The position numbers were made by a program, and so were the translations under genes. A stretch of DNA of 64,000 bases from Flavobacterium azooxidireducens (lineage in GTDB: Bacteria; Bacteroidota; Bacteroidia; Flavobacteriales; Flavobacteriaceae). Under the pieces are notes generated by a model. The model was not told where the DNA came from, did no database searches, and worked only from the letters and a program-made list of their open reading frames with translations. This document shows, in pieces, positions 4,455 to 45,905 of the stretch; the first letter of the stretch is position 1, and every line of letters starts with the position of its first letter. The DNA is taken from contig NZ_CP096205.1 of the NCBI RefSeq assembly GCF_023195775.1, forward strand, positions 868,001 through 932,000. Direction: 5' to 3'.

Positions 4455-4466
4455 TTGAAATCTACC

Positions 4467-4484
4467 TTTACGGATTCCCGTAAA
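4467..4484. promoter_or_regulatory. Palindromic operator-like site upstream of cas1
   Basis: Perfect inverted repeat TTTACGG-ATTC-CCGTAAA. Its 16-bp core (4468-4483) differs at only two central bases from the palindrome between cas9 and the tracrRNA (12763-12778). The core ends 28 bp before the far end of the predicted cas1 -7 element. The repetition and placement are seen in the sequence; that a protein binds here is inferred. Confidence 0.6.
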
Positions 4485-4503
4485 AATGAATCGATTAACT
4501 TTT

Positions 4504-4511
4504 TTAATTTG
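4504..4511 (+). promoter_or_regulatory. Predicted cas1-cas2 promoter -7 element
   Basis: TTAATTTG, one mismatch from the Bacteroidota consensus TAnnTTTG, 21 bp before the cas1 ATG. No clear -33 TTG was seen, so it may depend on an activator at the upstream palindrome. Confidence 0.45.
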
Positions 4512-4532
4512 CATAAGAAAACAACAACTCTT

Positions 4533-5417
4533 ATGTTAAAAAAAACAATTTTACTCGAAAAAAAAGCTTCTCTTTCCTATAAAAATCTTCAATTAGTTAT
4601 CAAAACAGAAGAAAGAGAAGCCACAATTCCTATAGAAGACATTGGATTTATTGTGTTAGATCATCCCGAGATTTATATAAGTATTCCGGCTATGAATTTA
4701 CTCATTGAAAACAATTCATCTTTTATTATTTGCAATACAAATCATTTGCCAAATGGGATGTTCTTGAACCTCAATAGTCATCATATCCAACAAGAGATTT
4801 TTAAAAAACAAATTGATGCTTCTGCACCTTTAAAAAAACAATTATGGCAACAAACCATAGTTGAAAAAATTAAAAACCAAGGCATTTTATTAGAAAAAAT
4901 AAGCGGTTCAAAAAATCATTTTGAGTTTTTGGCTTCCAAAGTGCAAAGTGGCGACACAACCAATATGGAAGGTGTGGCGGCGAGCCAATATTGGAAATCA
5001 TTTTTTGATTTAGATTTTAAACGAGAACGATTTGGCGATTATCCAAACAATTTTCTCAATTACGGCTATGCTATTTTAAGAGCGGCCACTGCAAGAGCTT
5101 TGTCGGGAAGTGGATTGCTCAACACACTTGGCATTCATCACAAAAGCAAGTACAATGCTTTTGCATTAGCCGATGACATTATGGAACCATTTCGCCCAAT
5201 TGTGGATGAAAAGGTTTTTGAATTAATGCAAAACTATGATGAACAGGAACTGAATACTTTACTTAAATCTGAACTCTTACAAATTTTAACCCGAACGGTC
5301 TATTTTAAAGAAGAGAAAAGTCCGCTTATGGTTGCATTGCAAAAAACAGCCAGTTCCTTACAGCAATGTTATTCGGGCGATCGAAAGAAAATAAAATATC
5401 CAAAATTATGGAGCTAA
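4533..5417 (+). CDS. cas1: CRISPR-associated endonuclease Cas1, type II
   Basis: 294 residues; integrase subunit that with Cas2 inserts new spacers at the leader end of the array. The start chosen is ATG 4533 (MLKKTILLEKKASLSYKN), which fits the family; a TTG-initiated extension to 4455 would run through the promoter. Family hallmarks: NMEGVAASQYW (metal-binding Glu146), GIHHKSKYNAFALADDIMEPFRP (His202/203, Asp214/215). Length matches type II Cas1. It overlaps cas2 by 10 bp, so the two are an operon. Unlike most II-C loci, cas9 is not in this operon but about 3.6 kb away on the opposite strand. Confidence 0.96.
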   Translation: MLKKTILLEKKASLSYKNLQLVIKTEEREATIPIEDIGFIVLDHPEIYISIPAMNLLIENNSSFIICNTNHLPNGMFLNLNSHHIQQEIFKKQIDASAPLKKQLWQQTIVEKIKNQGILLEKISGSKNHFEFLASKVQSGDTTNMEGVAASQYWKSFFDLDFKRERFGDYPNNFLNYGYAILRAATARALSGSGLLNTLGIHHKSKYNAFALADDIMEPFRPIVDEKVFELMQNYDEQELNTLLKSELLQILTRTVYFKEEKSPLMVALQKTASSLQQCYSGDRKKIKYPKLWS

Positions 5418-5737
5418 ACGGATACCGAATTATGTGGCTATTTGTATTTTTTGACTTACCAACCGAAACCAAAAAAGACCGAAGAAATGCTTCCGGTTTT
5501 AGAAACAACTTGCTAAAAGATGGTTTTAGTATGATGCAATATTCGGTTTATGTGCGTCATTGTGCGAGTAGCGAAAGTGCGGATGTGCACGAAAAACGAA
5601 TTCATAAACTCTTGCCACCATTAGGAAAAGTGAGTGTTTTGCGAATAACCGATAAACAATTTGGCAATATTTTAAATTTTTGGGGCAAAGCCGAAGTGCC
5701 AAAAGCTCCGCAACCTACGCAGTTGGAGTTGTTTTAA
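5408..5737 (+). CDS. cas2: CRISPR-associated protein Cas2, type II
   Basis: 109 residues, partner of Cas1 in the spacer-integration complex. Start ATG 5408 lies inside the cas1 3' end. The ferredoxin-like fold signature is clear: MWLFVFFDLPTETKKDRR (Asp16) and FLLKDG-like NNLLKDGFSMMQYSVYVRHC, then VSVLRITDKQFGNILNFWG. The proline-rich tail PKAPQPTQLELF is typical of type II-C Cas2. An upstream in-frame ATG at 5366 would add 14 residues inside cas1 and is less likely. It converges with the RAYT gene with only 2 bp between stop codons. Confidence 0.95.
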   Translation: MELNGYRIMWLFVFFDLPTETKKDRRNASGFRNNLLKDGFSMMQYSVYVRHCASSESADVHEKRIHKLLPPLGKVSVLRITDKQFGNILNFWGKAEVPKAPQPTQLELF

Positions 5738-5739
5738 AT

Positions 5740-6282
5740 TTATTTTTGATAAAACTTATCTTTCAACCAGTTAGTAGGATTATTTGAAATATAATTAAAT
5801 ATATTGACATAAGCTTTTTCATCTCTAATAATATGGTCATGGAATGAACGATGCCATGCAAAATCCTTAAAACCTAATTCATGAATTTGATTGGATGATT
5901 TTGTTTTCATTGCCCCCATCAAACTTGATAATGATTTTATTTTAATTTCCTTTTCCACTACTTTTTGACTGTCAATTTCTATGATTAAATGAAAATGATT
6001 GGGCATAACAATATAATTATGAATATCCACATATTCATACTGACTCATTAACCATTTGATTTTTTCATCAACAATTAATCCATATTGATTTAATTCAACT
6101 TTACATTCTATTTCTGGATTAACTTCGGACAGGGATGATTGTACGGACAGGTCGCGACCTGTCCCTACGGCAATCACACGACCCAAACAACACAAATTAT
6201 TTTTCACACAACTTGTGACAAAATATAAATTATTACTGGAATAATCGAATCCTTTCATTCGATTACTTTTTCGATTTTTCAT
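5740..6282 (-). CDS. REP-associated tyrosine transposase (RAYT, Y1 HUH family)
   Basis: 180 residues. The HUH motif is PNHFHLII (His96, His98); the C-terminal part has HDHIIRDEKAYVNIFNYISNNPTNW, with Tyr158/Tyr164 as candidates for the nucleophile. These enzymes cut and rejoin single-stranded REP hairpins, and REP copies flank or lie near their genes. Here one REP palindrome lies inside the coding sequence (residues about 38-48, VAVGTGRDLSV region) without breaking the frame, and a second lies upstream. It sits between cas2 and the array and has no known CRISPR role; probably a domesticated single-copy enzyme. Confidence 0.88.
   Translation of the reverse strand: MKNRKSNRMKGFDYSSNNLYFVTSCVKNNLCCLGRVIAVGTGRDLSVQSSLSEVNPEIECKVELNQYGLIVDEKIKWLMSQYEYVDIHNYIVMPNHFHLIIEIDSQKVVEKEIKIKSLSSLMGAMKTKSSNQIHELGFKDFAWHRSFHDHIIRDEKAYVNIFNYISNNPTNWLKDKFYQK
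6141..6168. repeat. REP palindrome inside the RAYT gene
   Basis: Core GGACAGGTCGCGACCTGTCC is a perfect 20-bp palindrome. Flanking GTA/TAC extends it to 28 bp with one mismatched pair. It is identical to the copy at 6427-6454 and is translated in frame within the transposase. Confidence 0.85.
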
Positions 6283-6466: not shown

Positions 6467-6515
6467 AAAAAATGCTTCAATCTTGCCTTATCACTGCAAA
6501 AAAGAAGCATTTTTT
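6467..6515 (-). terminator. Terminator at the distal end of the CRISPR array
   Basis: 12-bp stem AAAAAATGCTTC / GAAGCATTTTTT around a 25-nt loop. It is U-rich in both directions, but no rightward gene ends here, so it most likely ends leftward pre-crRNA transcription before the RAYT gene. Confidence 0.65.
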
Positions 6516-6539
6516 ATCACGACATACCCCGATATTCTC

Positions 6540-6552
6540 TTGATTATTAGAA
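6540..6552. repeat. Inverted partial repeat in the array trailer
   Basis: TTGATTATTAGAA, 15 bp outside the terminal repeat, is complementary to that repeat's TTCTAAT...AATCAA segment (6579-6595), leaving a 4-nt bulge. In the leftward transcript it would fold back on the last repeat. Confidence 0.55.
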
Positions 6553-6567
6553 GGTAACGAGCCAACT

Positions 6568-8711
6568 AATATCGTGTTTTCTAATCTTTAATCAAACCAC
6601 AACTTCTGTATAGAAACTATTTAATATTGACGGAATATCGTGTTTTCTAATCTTTAATCAAACCACAACCAGTTGTCCCAAAGAATTCTATTGGGTACAA
6701 ATATCGTGTTTTCTAATCTTTAATCAAACCACAACGAATTGGAAGCGTAATTGATCTAACTGTTGAATATCGTGTTTTCTAATCTTTAATCAAACCACAA
6801 CTACTGTAACAATTGGGGCGGGTATTGATGCAATATCGTGTTTTCTAATCTTTAATCAAACCACAACAAGAACCCGCTTATGTTCTTAAAGGCTATGAAT
6901 ATCGTGTTTTCTAATCTTTAATCAAACCACAACTTTTCCGTTGTGTTTGTATCGTTCCAAACGAATATCGTGTTTTCTAATCTTTAATCAAACCACAACA
7001 ATACCAAACGAAGCTACTTATAAAAACAAAATATCGTGTTTTCTAATCTTTAATCAAACCACAACACGTAACATCGAAAACAACAACGGTTGGAAATATC
7101 GTGTTTTCTAATCTTTAATCAAACCACAACAAACATTTCATCTGACATAATAGCTAAATCAATATCGTGTTTTCTAATCTTTAATCAAACCACAACGCAT
7201 CCATTCTTTTTTAGCCTCGTCAGTAAAATATCGTGTTTTCTAATCTTTAATCAAACCACAACAAGTTGCAGCCGTTCACATGACAAACAACGAATATCGT
7301 GTTTTCTAATCTTTAATCAAACCACAACATCGCTTAATTGTTGACGTAAACACCACAAAATATCGTGTTTTCTAATCTTTAATCAAACCACAACACCGCT
7401 GTATTGTGTTTATTGGTGCGTTTTAATATCGTGTTTTCTAATCTTTAATCAAACCACAACCTATTTACCAAAAGGAATAATTTTCTATCAATATCGTGTT
7501 TTCTAATCTTTAATCAAACCACAACAAGTGAATCAGATGCAATAAAGAAAACAGCAATATCGTGTTTTCTAATCTTTAATCAAACCACAACATTGTTTTG
7601 GAAATGATTCATAATAAAAATAATATCGTGTTTTCTAATCTTTAATCAAACCACAACAAAAACAAGTTGGCAAAGAATAGACTGTATAATATCGTGTTTT
7701 CTAATCTTTAATCAAACCACAACAAGTAAAGTGAGTTTCATTTTGTACTATTGAATATCGTGTTTTCTAATCTTTAATCAAACCACAACAATGGTGGATT
7801 AGGTGGGTTTATCGAACGTAATATCGTGTTTTCTAATCTTTAATCAAACCACAACAGAACCTTACATGACTATTGCGGCTTATTAAATATCGTGTTTTCT
7901 AATCTTTAATCAAACCACAACAGTGGGATGAAATACTTGATTACGCAAAGAAATATCGTGTTTTCTAATCTTTAATCAAACCACAACACAGCGGGTTAAA
8001 CGTCTGCTCATACCCAAATATCGTGTTTTCTAATCTTTAATCAAACCACAACCGGAGGTCACTATGTGAAATCTATCTACATAATATCGTGTTTTCTAAT
8101 CTTTAATCAAACCACAACTCTCTGTTGTTATTTCAATCACTATACCAAAATATCGTGTTTTCTAATCTTTAATCAAACCACAACCTCCCTAAGTGATGAA
8201 CTATTGATTTTTCAAATATCGTGTTTTCTAATCTTTAATCAAACCACAACTGTTCAGCTTGAATACTAAGACTATCAAATAATATCGTGTTTTCTAATCT
8301 TTAATCAAACCACAACTGATAATAGATTACCCATTCCTTCAATTGAATATCGTGTTTTCTAATCTTTAATCAAACCACAACGTATTCGATTGAATGTTTG
8401 ATATTTCTCCTAATATCGTGTTTTCTAATCTTTAATCAAACCACAACTATGGTCATCACAGAACCCATGGTAATGATAATATCGTGTTTTCTAATCTTTA
8501 ATCAAACCACAACAATGCAAGTGTAGGGGATAGAGTTTTTTGTAATATCGTGTTTTCTAATCTTTAATCAAACCACAACCGAGTATTTAATACCGTTGTA
8601 GGACACATTAATATCGTGTTTTCTAATCTTTAATCAAACCACAACATATATTGATTTTATGTCTATTTCTATACCAATATCGTGTTTTCTAATCTTTAAT
8701 CAAACCACAAC
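6568..8711 (-). CRISPR. CRISPR array, type II-C, 33 repeats and 32 spacers
   Basis: 36-bp repeats; on the crRNA (minus) strand each starts GTTGTGGTTTGATT and ends ACACGATATT. All 33 copies read identical, including both ends. Of 32 spacers, 28 are 30 nt and four are 29 nt (before the repeats at 7095, 7490, 8017 and 8346). Orientation follows from the tracrRNA: its anti-repeat has the plus-strand sequence, so crRNAs must be read leftward, with the leader at 8712-8783 and the terminator at 6467-6515. Apparent ORFs in the array are repeat translations only. Confidence 0.98.
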
Positions 8712-8745
8712 GGAGTGACTGCGTAGAAACTCCGTTGTGGTTTGA
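8700..8745 (-). promoter_or_regulatory. Leader hairpin that includes the first repeat
   Basis: Perfect 17-bp inverted repeat: TCAAACCACAACGGAGT (8700-8716) and ACTCCGTTGTGGTTTGA (8729-8745), 12-nt loop. Twelve base pairs use the leader-proximal repeat and five lie wholly in the leader. In the leftward transcript the leader would pair with the 5' part of the first repeat, the same bases the tracrRNA pairs with. Only 72 bp separate the array from the parE stop; a TTGACA and a near-consensus TAAGTTTT lie there as weak promoter candidates. Confidence 0.7.
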
Positions 8746-8783
8746 GTTGTTTAAGAGTTTGAAAAACTTATGTCAATGAAATT

Positions 8784-9059
8784 TTAAAAATTTTGTCTGC
8801 CAATGATTGCCATGATTTCTATTTCATCGGCTTTGATTTTATAAAAAATGGTATCGACTCCGCAAACACAATAGCGATATCCTTTTTTATAATGATTAGC
8901 ATTGGGAAATAGAAATGGATTTGAAGCTATTTTAGAAAAACATTCAAAAAACATTTCGTAATATTTATTGGCTTGTTCCAATCCAAATTGACCAATACTA
9001 TATTCAAAAATCCGAGTCAAATCTTCTTCAACTTGAATGTTAAGTCTATAACTATACAT
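8784..9059 (-). CDS. RelE/ParE-family toxin
   Basis: 91 residues with the ParE/RelE fold pattern: an N-terminal strand and helix (YRLNIQVEEDLTRIFEYSIGQFGLEQANKYYEMF), SNPFLFP, KGYRYCVCGVDTIFYKI and the C-terminal strand EIMAIIGRQNF. ParE toxins usually act on DNA gyrase, RelE on ribosome-bound mRNA; the ParD-like partner favours ParE. It overlaps the antitoxin gene by 8 bp. Its stop is 72 bp from the CRISPR array, so it lies between cas9 and the array on the same strand. Confidence 0.85.
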   Translation of the reverse strand: MYSYRLNIQVEEDLTRIFEYSIGQFGLEQANKYYEMFFECFSKIASNPFLFPNANHYKKGYRYCVCGVDTIFYKIKADEIEIMAIIGRQNF

Positions 9060-9291
9060 TCAATTTTTTTTTAATTTCTGCTAATAATTCTTCTTTGCTT
9101 TTTGTGCTAAAACCGCTTTTTTCTGCTTTTTCAATTTTCATTCGCACAAATTCCACATAAGCATCTTGCTCTCGTGCTTGTTTGATGAGATAATTTACCG
9201 CTTCGCTTTTACTTGTAAATTCTTCTTTAGCTACTTGTTCTTTTAACCATTCATCGTTTTGATTGGCTAAAGTGATACTTTGTCTTGCCAT
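9052..9291 (-). CDS. ParD-like (ribbon-helix-helix) antitoxin
   Basis: 79 residues. MARQSITLANQNDEWLKEQV is a ribbon-helix-helix N-terminus; FTSKSEAVNYLIKQAREQ is its second helix, and the charged C-terminal tail would wrap the toxin. Such proteins bind their own operator as dimers, and a long palindrome begins 3 bp upstream of the start codon. cas9 ends 43 bp upstream on the same strand, so cas9 read-through could also express the pair. Confidence 0.85.
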   Translation of the reverse strand: MARQSITLANQNDEWLKEQVAKEEFTSKSEAVNYLIKQAREQDAYVEFVRMKIEKAEKSGFSTKSKEELLAEIKKKLNV

Positions 9292-9293
9292 AA

Positions 9294-9337
9294 TAAAATT
9301 ATTTAGTGGTGTAAATATACACCACTAAATAATTTTA
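9294..9337 (-). promoter_or_regulatory. Palindromic operator/promoter of the toxin-antitoxin pair, overlapping the cas9 stop
   Basis: Perfect inverted repeat with 20-bp arms (9294-9313 and 9318-9337) and a 4-nt centre; the inner part is ATTTAGTGGTGTA/TACACCACTAAAT. TATATTTA at its centre on the minus strand resembles TAnnTTTG, so antitoxin binding would cover the promoter. The outer arm includes the cas9 stop codon (9335-9337). As RNA it is a stable hairpin and could also end cas9 transcripts. Confidence 0.75.
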
Positions 9338-12300
9338 CAAATTTTTTATTTTCCCTGATACTGAAATTTTTACTTTTATTGGATTATATGTAAACCAACC
9401 TGTTTTACCATTCAAAAAATTCTTAATATAAATTCGTTCATTATCATTATTAATCGTTGAGGTTTTTGCAATTCTAAAATAATAATCTCCAGAAGTAAAT
9501 TTCTGTACTCTATATAAATGTTCTTTCAATACTTCATAATTGGGATTTATCCAATTTATTTCGTCTTCATGTAATCCCAACAAAAACATATCATTAATAT
9601 GCAAAGTTGTTACAATTTCTTCCCCATCCAATGGTAACTGATAAACCGATTGTCCCGTTCTTTTTCTTTCAACAACAGTCCAAAAAGTTACCACATCTTC
9701 TTTTAAATTACCTTTTTCATCTTTATAAATTAAAACATGATGGTTGTTTCTTGGATTTACCCATTGATTCACATTTTCTTTCAGTTTTTCTGCTCCACCA
9801 ATATTCTCTTTTACTCTGACTTTTAAAATTGGAACTGGTGCTCCATTTTTATTGGATAAAAATATTTGTGGTTGCTTTATTCCTTTTTCGTCAACAATGA
9901 AAAAAGTATTGGCTGGAACTTTATCTTTTACAAAGCCTCCAAGCTCATTCACCCGTTTTAAAATCAACAATTTTGTTGTTTCATCAACAACTTTTTCAAT
10001 TTGTTTGGCTGTTTCTAAACTATCAATTGATTTTCTAACATGAAAAGCTTCTTCTCCATTAAAATTTCTTTTACCAAATACGGTTTCTTTATGTAATTGT
10101 CCCCGAGCCGCAACACCAACATTTTTATGTTTAATTCCATTTTTTTCTGTAATGTGTCTTCTAACAGTTATATCATTGGAAGCTTTTTTATGAGAAATTA
10201 AAATTTTCTCTACTGCTATTTCTGCATCTCTTCTAAACGATTCCCAAGGCAATGGAAAGTTCTTCAATTCTGAATTTCTATTGTATCTGTTCCATCTTGA
10301 TAATTCTTGAACATACGAAACTTTTGTGCAAGCCAAAACCAAAGCATCAATAGCATGATGACGATGATCTTCACGTGTTTTTGCATTTTCATCATTCAAA
10401 ATATTATTCATTCCCCATTTCTGACGCAAGTTTGAAGTGGCTTGACCTGGTGAAACTATAACATGCCTACATACTTTTGAAAGATAATTTTTGGCTTCTT
10501 TACTTATATATCTTGTGTCATTTAATTGTCTTGAAGAAAAATCATCATCAAACTTCTGTTGAACAAACCGTTTAAATTTTTGATATGCATTTGGATATTC
10601 TTTAGTATCTGAAAATAATTTTAATGCTCTCTCTTTTATCGCCGACCAATTGATTTCATCGTTTCCATAATATTCAAATGGTGTTTTATTCCCTTTAAGA
10701 ATGTTTTCTTTGGCATAACACAACGTTTTATTACCAAAACTATCGTTTAACGAGCGACTCCAAGGATGAATGTGTTCAATTTGAACTTCTCCGGTAAATA
10801 ATTGGGTAACCGAAATAGGTTTTCCTGTATATGGACACGTTTTTTTACATTCTTCCCAAAGTTTATAAAGCAAAATATTATCGTGAGTAATTCTGATATT
10901 ATTTTCTACTAATCTGTCTTTTACTCTATCATTTTCTCTTTCTAATCTATTTTGTTCTTTTCGTATTTTGTTTCGTTGTGATTTTGAAATTTTTAAATCA
11001 CGAGCCATTTCTACTTTTATTTCATCAATCTTACCATGAACCTCAATTAGTTCATTAACTAATTTTCTTAATTCAAAAAGTGCCGTAATTACAATAGGAT
11101 TTCGAATAGCTTGAATTTCTTTGTCAGCTTCTTTTCCTAATGGTAATTTTTCTAATAATTCTGAAACATCAATAGTTGCGGAATGATGATATAATTTACG
11201 AAGTTGGTTGTCTGAAATATTGTAATCATTTCGTAAAATATCTTTAATTATCTCAATAAATCCACCTTTTGTTTTGGAACGAACAATCCCTTCAATATTA
11301 TCTATTAAATAATTACGTTTTTCTTCTGATAATTTATTCCAATCGGAGCCAAAAACATTTTTAATTCCTCCTAAAACTACAGCAACATCATAAGTAAATC
11401 CTATTTGCAAAAACGGTAGTATGTTCGAAATTGCTTTTCTACTTAAATTGGAATAGCCATCTTTAACATTAAATCTTGAGATAGAATCAGCCTGTTCTTG
11501 CGTAAAATTCCAGTTCTTAATAGCATATTCTTTTAAATTAGATTTACTATCAAAAAAATACAAAACATGCCAAATATCCTCTTGTTCCTTTTCTGAAAAT
11601 TCAAACCATTTTTTACCAAAATACTTTTTATTGGATAAATTAGAAATAGTATGAGTTCCAACTATTTTATCTTCATCTTTATAATTAAATTTAAATTCAG
11701 CACTTTCTTTTCCAATAGCTTTTCTAATTTTTTTGAATTCCGGCTTTTCATTGGCAAACAAAAACTCTACAATTTTTTCCTTTTCTTCTTGCGAAATTTT
11801 CTTTCCATTATATTCAACCGTATTTAGCCATTGCCAAACTCTAAATTGCTCAAATGGAATTGCACTAAGTGGACACTTGGTTTTCGTTGGCTCAAAAGAA
11901 CAATTACCCACTAAATGCTTCTGTGAACGCAATGGTCGTTGATGAAATAAAATTCCATCTTCTTTATAACCTTCTAATTTTCTTCCGCCAAATAATGTTT
12001 TTAAATCTTCATTAAGATTAGAATGAAACTGAGATTGCTTGTTCCAAATCAATTCAAACTCATCAACATACATTTTACGAGTTGTGTATCGGTTACGAAT
12101 TCGTTCCAAACCATCTTGAAAAGGTTGATTTTCTTTTGGATAAATTTCAAATAAATAAGAGCCTAACGTTTTATCTTGAATGTTTTCTTGTGTTTCTATA
12201 ATACCAATTTTTCCTTCTTTTGGATTTCCTTTAAAAATAGCTCCGTCATCTGTTCCGCCTTTTCTGCTATTACTCAAAAATCCTCTTCTTTGTATTAAAT

Positions 12301-12814: not shown

Positions 12815-12902
12815 ATTAAACTTTCTAATCTTTAATCTTATCACAATAAGGCTATATGCCGTAGGTTTTAACCTTTAGTCCTGCTTCGGTGGGACTTTTT
12901 TT
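12815..12902 (+). ncRNA. tracrRNA
   Basis: The anti-repeat, starting TTTCTAATCTTTAATC (about 12822-12837) and continuing TTATCACAA, pairs with the crRNA repeat: about 16 contiguous pairs, a 2-nt internal mismatch, then the GUUGUGG end. Hairpins follow: GGC-TATAT-GCC, AGG-TTTTA-CCT, and the terminator stem AGTCCTGC-TTCG-GTGGGACT with seven T. Expected length is about 88 nt, the usual II-C size. The 5' end is inferred from the -7 element. Confidence 0.9.
12877..12902 (+). terminator. Intrinsic terminator of the tracrRNA
   Basis: 8-bp stem with TTCG tetraloop followed by a T7 run; it doubles as the 3' hairpin of the tracrRNA. Confidence 0.9.
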
Positions 12903-12978
12903 ATATCAAACAATTCCCAAAATTAAGTTAATCAATTTCAAAATCAATAGCAATACTATTACTTTTGCGTTGTTAATT

Positions 12979-42682: not shown

Positions 42683-42746
42683 GACGAAGGAGAAATCACA
42701 TAAAGTAGGTAAACGATATGTGATTTCTCCTTCGTCGAAATGACAC
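42683..42746. repeat. REP palindrome at the right border of the IS110 element
   Basis: GACGAAGGAGAAATCACAT (42683-42701) and its complement at 42718-42736, 16-nt loop; the right arm continues CGAAATGACAC to 42746, matching the piece left of the element. Confidence 0.85.
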
Positions 42747-45852: not shown

Positions 45853-45905
45853 ATAATCAGCCATAAGTGTATATTTTTAACCACTTATGGCTGATTATTT
45901 TTTTT
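45853..45905 (+). terminator. Terminator of the aminotransferase gene
   Basis: 17-bp perfect stem ATAATCAGCCATAAGTG / CACTTATGGCTGATTAT, 12-nt loop, then a run of T. Confidence 0.88.

Follow-up and report, generated by a model that had tools for sequence, protein, structure and literature searches.

Leader-repeat hairpins are known from type II-A and type VI CRISPR arrays (PMC12080349, PMC13187072). For type II-C arrays, the accessible part of PMC12080349 states that none have been identified, and it also notes that the extra repeat of these arrays could give rise to an extraneous crRNA (ecrRNA). The II-C locus of F. columnare has 36-nt repeats and carries parD/parE between cas9 and the array; base 36 of its repeat is leader-proximal, transcription of its arrays is inferred to run toward the leader, and a promoter in each repeat has been proposed (PMC8092290). 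In R. anatipestifer, spacers enter between cas2 and the array (PMC6008519). These papers, and PMC5608340 below, are cited from the accessible portions of their texts.

Here we analyze a stretch of 64,000 nt from Flavobacterium azooxidireducens (contig NZ_CP096205.1, positions 868,001 to 932,000), referred to as the window, in which one end of a II-C array is joined to a hairpin. We consider it likely that this hairpin acts in cis at the 5' end of the pre-crRNA and silences the extraneous crRNA of the extra first repeat.

The II-C locus and its hairpin

The array is read on the minus strand (Table 1), in which sense the repeat begins with GTTGTG from nt 1 onward and pairs with the tracrRNA. The features of type II-C are present, namely a Cas9 with RuvC and HNH domains by Pfam and a tracrRNA whose anti-repeat is recognizable in the sequence and in co-folding. 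In the interval bounded by cas1 and cas9, the open reading frames of 80 aa or more are cas1, cas2, Y1_Tnp, an 84-aa frame inside the array, parE, and cas9, and neither csn2 nor cas4 was found among them. Beside the IS200/REP-type transposase gene (Y1_Tnp, 5740-6282), between cas2 and the array, a 20-bp perfect palindrome occurs in two copies (6145 and 6431).

Table 1. Features of the locus, numbered from the first nucleotide of the window.
Feature	Position	Strand	Description and basis
cas1	4455..5417	+	Pfam
cas2	5366..5737	+	Pfam
Probable true adaptation leader	6508..6567	-	3' of the array in crRNA sense; conserved flank by the last repeat; PMC8092290 (accessible part)
CRISPR array	6568..8711	-	33 identical 36-nt repeats, spacers of 29-30 nt
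First (extra, probably oldest) repeat, crRNA sense	8676..8711	-	Repeat listing
Hairpin 3' arm	8700..8716	-	Flank bases 8712-8716 and the first 12 nt of the first repeat (8700-8711)
Hairpin loop	8717..8728	-	Inverted-repeat search and folding
Hairpin 5' arm	8729..8745	-	Anti-repeat 8734-8745 and five flank-only bases 8729-8733
Promoter-like pair	8749..8776	-	TTG 8774-8776 and TAAAC 8749-8753; conserved; predicted start about 8744-8739
parE-like toxin gene	8784..9059	-	Pfam; reads toward the hairpin and array
parD-like antitoxin gene, 79 aa	9052..9291	-	Pfam score 20.3 (curated cut-off 21)
cas9, 1124 aa	9335..12709	-	Pfam RuvC_III, HNH_4
tracrRNA	12819..12905	+	Anti-repeat, stem-loops and terminator-like end (by eye); co-fold

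The hairpin is a perfect inverted repeat of 17 bp with fully complementary arms and a 12-nt loop, and its division into 12 pairs within the repeat and 5 within the flank agrees with the original prediction. Folding of this region on the minus strand gave z = -4.8 against 200 shuffles. By length, the hairpin is rare in the window rather than unique, as it is one of four perfect inverted repeats that span 17 bp or more and have loops of 3-60 nt, the others lying at 9294-9337, 42683-42736, and 45853-45898. The first of these, 20 bp long, directly follows cas9, between cas9 and parD. The second, also 20 bp, resembles a CTCCTTCGTCGGAATGAC-like sequence upstream of the arrays of some relatives (e.g., L077 and L058) and is perhaps a dispersed family repeat.

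In the predicted repeat-tracrRNA duplex, repeat nt 1-8 and 11-26 are paired and nt 9-10 are not. The earlier statement that the arm-paired part of the repeat also pairs with the tracrRNA thus holds for 10 of the 12 nt and fails for nt 9-10. The arm itself was considered as a tracrRNA and rejected because a full tracrRNA sits at 12819-12905 and because the arm, after a short loop, runs straight into the first repeat; an anti-repeat followed by a nexus and terminator fits 12819-12905 and not the arm. A sub-threshold match of the hairpin to the Rfam family psRNA14 (24.4 bits, cut-off 60, E 1.6) was taken as chance.

Conservation of the arm and covariation of the stem

Relatives were gathered by Cas9 homology and none were picked for a hairpin. 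Within the genus, Cas9 matched 36 of 398 genomes; at family and order level, it matched 24 of 397 and 9 of 296. Each count includes the window's own genome. A further Cas9 source was 47 loci from genome contigs, and 40 wider stretches were added, one of which duplicated a locus already in the set. Repeats were assigned to the same family when they had at most 8 mismatches in 36 positions and at most 3 in the first 11, and other repeat families were left out. Removal of duplicates gave 69 array starts, and L155 was dropped for its Ns, leaving 68. A first unit was scored as intact with at most 2 mismatches in 11, and an arm was scored as present when 9 or more of 11 positions matched within 110 nt.

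An arm was present in 43 of 47 starts with an intact first unit and in 6 of 21 starts without one (Fisher p 3e-7, relatedness ignored). The 11-nt sequence CAAACCACAAC is exact in 36 of the 43 elements that combine an arm with an intact repeat (type A), the window included, while among 13,600 shuffled flanks a match of 9/11 arose in 4.0% and of 11/11 in 0.015%. Upstream RNA complementary to the first repeat is therefore conserved, as in other leader-repeat hairpins, and a lack of complementary arms in related leaders, which had been named as grounds for giving up the original prediction, was not observed. On the Cas9 tree, the state of the first unit changes 14 times and that of the arm 13 times; on average, 7.4 of 13 independent pairs show an arm change in the same direction and 0.5 show one in the opposite direction. 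This tree-aware test is weaker than the Fisher test (median p 0.039, range 0.008-0.125).

The arm carriers include Flavobacterium, Lutibacter, Confluentibacter, Kaistella, and Aequorivita, and the Cas9 proteins that accompany the arm fall at about 1124, 1300, and 1550 aa, with identity to that of the window as low as about 30% for the most distant. Judged from these sequences, the arm follows the repeat and not one Cas9. In other repeat families (L136, L137, L139, and L085), inspection by eye found no comparable arm, and several first units there appear to be degenerate or interrupted.

Two groups of array starts speak against silencing of the ecrRNA. The arm persists beside a non-intact unit in 6 of 21 starts, and four intact starts of 47 were scored as lacking it, namely L124, L046 (which has a partial arm), L068, and L078. 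No convincing helix was seen in L124 and L046. In L068 and L078, the repeat start folds with other upstream bases, forming a short hairpin in the former and a wobble-rich arm in the latter; these folds were seen post hoc and stand outside the count.

First units that are not intact take several forms. Some are truncated at the 5' end and fused to a TTGACAT box that is also found in the flanks of arm carriers (e.g., L063, L065, L067, and L075), while others are mutated (e.g., L062 and L123) or interrupted (e.g., L053, L052, and L144). In L053, L052, L055, L071, and L144, the first repeat is broken after GTTGTGGTTT (or its remnant) by an insert of about 50-60 bp, which has inverted ends of the ACAAACAC.../...GTGTTTGT kind. 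In L144, the insert is found in at least 2 units, as if copied along with the repeat.

It could be supposed that the hairpin shields the long pre-crRNA from decay and that the use of a repeat as one arm is incidental, as use of the promoter-like boxes would place the structure at the 5' end or close to it. We regard this as improbable, since a hairpin within the flank would suffice for such protection, but 43 of the 47 intact starts have an arm that matches the repeat; moreover, the arm is mostly absent (15 of 21) where the first repeat is already disabled.

The stem was also recovered unaided by RNAalifold from the 43 aligned elements, with double changes in 4 of 14 pairs. Across all 16 stem pairs, 96.5% of cells pair, compared with 34-46% when the partner is slid. 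The nearly invariant arm accounts for most of this signal, which makes the flank-only pairs the real test. In shuffles that ignore relatedness, the flank-only pairs exceeded expectation in the fraction paired (91.2% versus 69.9%, sd 2.0), in double-changed cells (44 versus 12.5 expected), and in covariation score (0.596 versus 0.228), with 0 of 500 shuffles as high in each case. The same shuffles gave no excess for two further measures, the number of flank-only pairs with a double change (4 versus 3.8; 368 of 500 shuffles as high) and the number of further pair types (10 versus 9.3; 213 of 500). Slid versions of the flank-only pairs reached at most 71.9% paired and a score of 0.248. Among 41 distinct loops, the first 8 pairs from the repeat boundary form in 79.6%, compared with 61.8% (sd 2.0) when right sides are re-dealt and 31-56% when slid.

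A covariance model built from the elements matched 58 of 396 genomes in the genus and 7 of 247 drawn from the phylum, all seven in Flavobacterium and one being the window's own. All 30 of the genus loci that were opened lie on a first repeat; 13 of these, including the window, were already aligned, 7 have a loop that is present in the alignment, and 10 are outside it. In these ten loops, pairs 1-5 are formed in 8, 10, 8, 10, and 10 of 10. Compensatory changes are thus found in the flank-only part of the stem, and the arm itself hardly varies. The comparison of related II-C leaders that had been proposed as a check on the original prediction has yielded covarying flank bases, and the hairpin, which related II-C arrays also carry, is more than a leftover repeat copy, as had been claimed. 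In the flanks of L049, L149, L076, and L081, the 5' flank strand of the stem can also pair with an inner copy of its partner, and this three-part A-B-C arrangement is a possible alternative fold.

Covariation alone would fit equally a palindrome that acts as DNA, whether as a cruciform, a boundary, or an integration mark for Cas1-Cas2 or array stability. Among 52 distinct elements, however, G-U wobbles are favored over A-C mismatches by 7 to 1 (p 0.035 in a one-sided test on elements that are not independent), and the arm of L078, noted post hoc, pairs only with several wobbles. Together with the leader-distal position discussed below, this makes a role in DNA very unlikely.

Array polarity, transcript start, and predicted masking

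The original prediction took the hairpin flank for the leader of the array. Repeat base 36 of the window faces the cas2 side (6567 and below). Of 119 stretches that contain an array, 48 have a flank after the last repeat that starts with AGTTG or something close to it when locus copies are kept; 39 do once copies and arrays of fewer than 8 repeats are removed, and many other stretches end inside the array. L048, which has the same array as L014, keeps the hairpin and a single repeat although it has no spacer, and its order is hairpin, repeat, and an AGTTG-type flank that was taken for the adaptation leader. In the shared-spacer comparison for dating the ends, no pair of arrays had only part of their spacers in common. 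Of 39 arrays, 7 have a deviating first repeat at the hairpin end and 4 have one at the other end. Given the F. columnare precedent (PMC8092290), the conserved flank on the cas2 side, and the order in L048, the hairpin most likely lies at the leader-distal, oldest end of the array. Its flank is therefore probably not the adaptation leader, and the proposals that it changes processing of the newest spacer or marks the Cas1-Cas2 integration site as a cruciform would no longer apply.

This polarity also bears on the possibility that the hairpin, like its S. pyogenes II-A counterpart, serves chiefly to accelerate maturation of the neighboring crRNA. The geometry equals that of the II-A leader-repeat hairpin (PMC12080349, PMC13187072). 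However, the adjacent spacer here is probably the oldest, and II-C repeats are reported to have their own promoters (PMC8092290), so a boost to the first crRNA has little obvious value and such a role seems improbable.

Upstream of the arm, 40 of 43 elements have a TTGAC whose first base precedes the arm by 25 to 33 nt, and 37 of 43 have a TAAAC at a distance of 8 or 9 nt. The Bacteroidetes promoter spacing of -33/-7 was used for the start estimate. The positions of the boxes suggest a transcription start within the first bases of the arm. As the promoter consensus quoted in PMC10309648 (accessible part) is TAnnTTTG, from which TAAAC differs, we infer the promoter only from these boxes. Transcripts that read through from parDE or cas9 would carry the complete arm in either case.

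As the hairpin sits between parE and the array on the same strand, it might instead terminate transcription or insulate the array from parDE/cas9, and upstream terminators are one published II-C solution (PMC12080349). A consensus scan of 8600-9340 found no terminator-like site, and the stem is not followed by the U-tract that such a terminator has; we give this explanation hardly any weight.

The preferred reading, silencing of the ecrRNA, was modeled by co-folding the 28 of 43 type A arrays that have exactly one recognizable tracrRNA in the stretch, using one repeat per RNA and the array's own tracrRNA. In 23 of 28 leader RNAs, repeat nt 1-6 are predicted to pair with the tracrRNA with a probability below 0.05, whereas the median probability is 0.971 with the arm removed and 0.978 in ordinary units of the same arrays (236 units, 27 arrays). 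For the window, the corresponding values are 6.5e-5, 0.971, and 0.969. The upper duplex (nt 12-24) is predicted to remain paired with the tracrRNA in leader RNAs (median 0.99). Masking leaks in 5 of 28 models (L080, L060, L040, L082, and L059), and it weakens when the RNA starts 5 nt inside the arm, close to where the inferred start lies (median 0.42, 0 of 28 under 0.05). Without tracrRNA, occupancy of nt 1-8 above 0.5 is found in 45 of 47 intact first repeats and also in 38 of 53 second repeats, a weak separation. In a two-repeat co-fold, second units have a median of only 0.387 (9 of 27 above 0.5), a result that we regard as confounded, since the single tracrRNA is available to both repeats; the first unit of L068 reaches 0.943 in this setting, its short hairpin being predicted not to resist the tracrRNA.

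In type II processing, RNase III is expected to cut the upper repeat-tracrRNA duplex. With nt 1-6 blocked and nt 12-24 paired in the co-fold, the hairpin would hide the guide-proximal handle and spare this expected target. The folding and comparative data thus support the earlier suggestion that the hairpin would hold the first repeat of the transcript.

As such, the following sequence of events may be proposed. The arm CAAACCACAAC, just downstream of the promoter-like site, would pair with the first repeat over nt 1-11, in a stem lengthened by the variable, covarying flank bases. The short repeat segment that must pair with the tracrRNA next to the guide would thereby be hidden, so that the extra repeat, lacking its own spacer, would be unable to load Cas9 as an extraneous crRNA. 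This blocking would hold for transcripts from the local promoter and for read-through from parDE/cas9 alike. As the upper tracrRNA duplex would stay free, RNase III could still remove the leader.

A broader reading is possible, although we put it forward tentatively and think it doubtful. A promoter-linked, previously undescribed structured RNA might cap the old end of Flavobacteriaceae II-C arrays across several Cas9 lineages, masking the Cas9 handle and exposing the RNase III duplex, so that the first repeat would be a processing site that detaches upstream transcripts and makes no guide. Lineages without the cap would instead disable the first repeat, which is truncated and joined to the TTGACAT box, or interrupted.

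Comparison with described systems

The hairpin contradicts the published statement that none have been identified in type II-C. Its novelty in II-C had been anticipated, and a literature search covering mostly the beginnings of abstracts and few subscription papers, most of which fell outside its scope, found no description of the element. The F. columnare II-C locus shares cas9, parDE, 36-nt repeats, and a leader at the base-36 end with the window, and the word 'hairpin' has 0 occurrences in that paper, whose RNA-seq data gave only eight reads for the II-C array (PMC8092290). Prevotella intermedia, also in Bacteroidota, has a stem-loop predicted beside its II-C array, but that palindrome is placed inside the leader on the cas2 side, ahead of the first repeat, and is not described as repeat-pairing in the accessible part of PMC5608340. 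The II-C countermeasures against ecrRNAs (PMC12080349) concern the same problem and the same array end, and mutated first units are found in relatives of the window as well; those countermeasures are upstream terminators, hairpins formed between the guide region and the upstream region, or mutations.

The II-A leader-repeat hairpin (PMC12080349, PMC13187072) is comparable in that upstream RNA pairs with an ecrRNA-forming first repeat of a Cas9 array, and the II-A stem named in the original prediction is borne out by these papers. The likeness is drawn from the published descriptions. The hairpin of the window belongs to type II-C, lies probably at the old end and not in a leader at the spacer-acquisition end (as judged from the conserved cas2-side flank, L048, and PMC8092290), and adjoins a promoter-like site at the end opposite the adaptation leader. 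The type VI (Cas13) hairpin likewise pairs with the first repeat, and suppression of the ecrRNA has been shown there (PMC13187072); however, Cas13b processes its own repeat, whereas the system of the window would be blocked at tracrRNA pairing. The two exchangeable solutions in one family, the arm and a disabled first repeat, provide a natural experiment on whether extraneous crRNAs cost fitness. If our reading is true, II-A and II-C Cas9 arrays, despite their opposite polarity, and Cas13 arrays share one cure for the extraneous guide.
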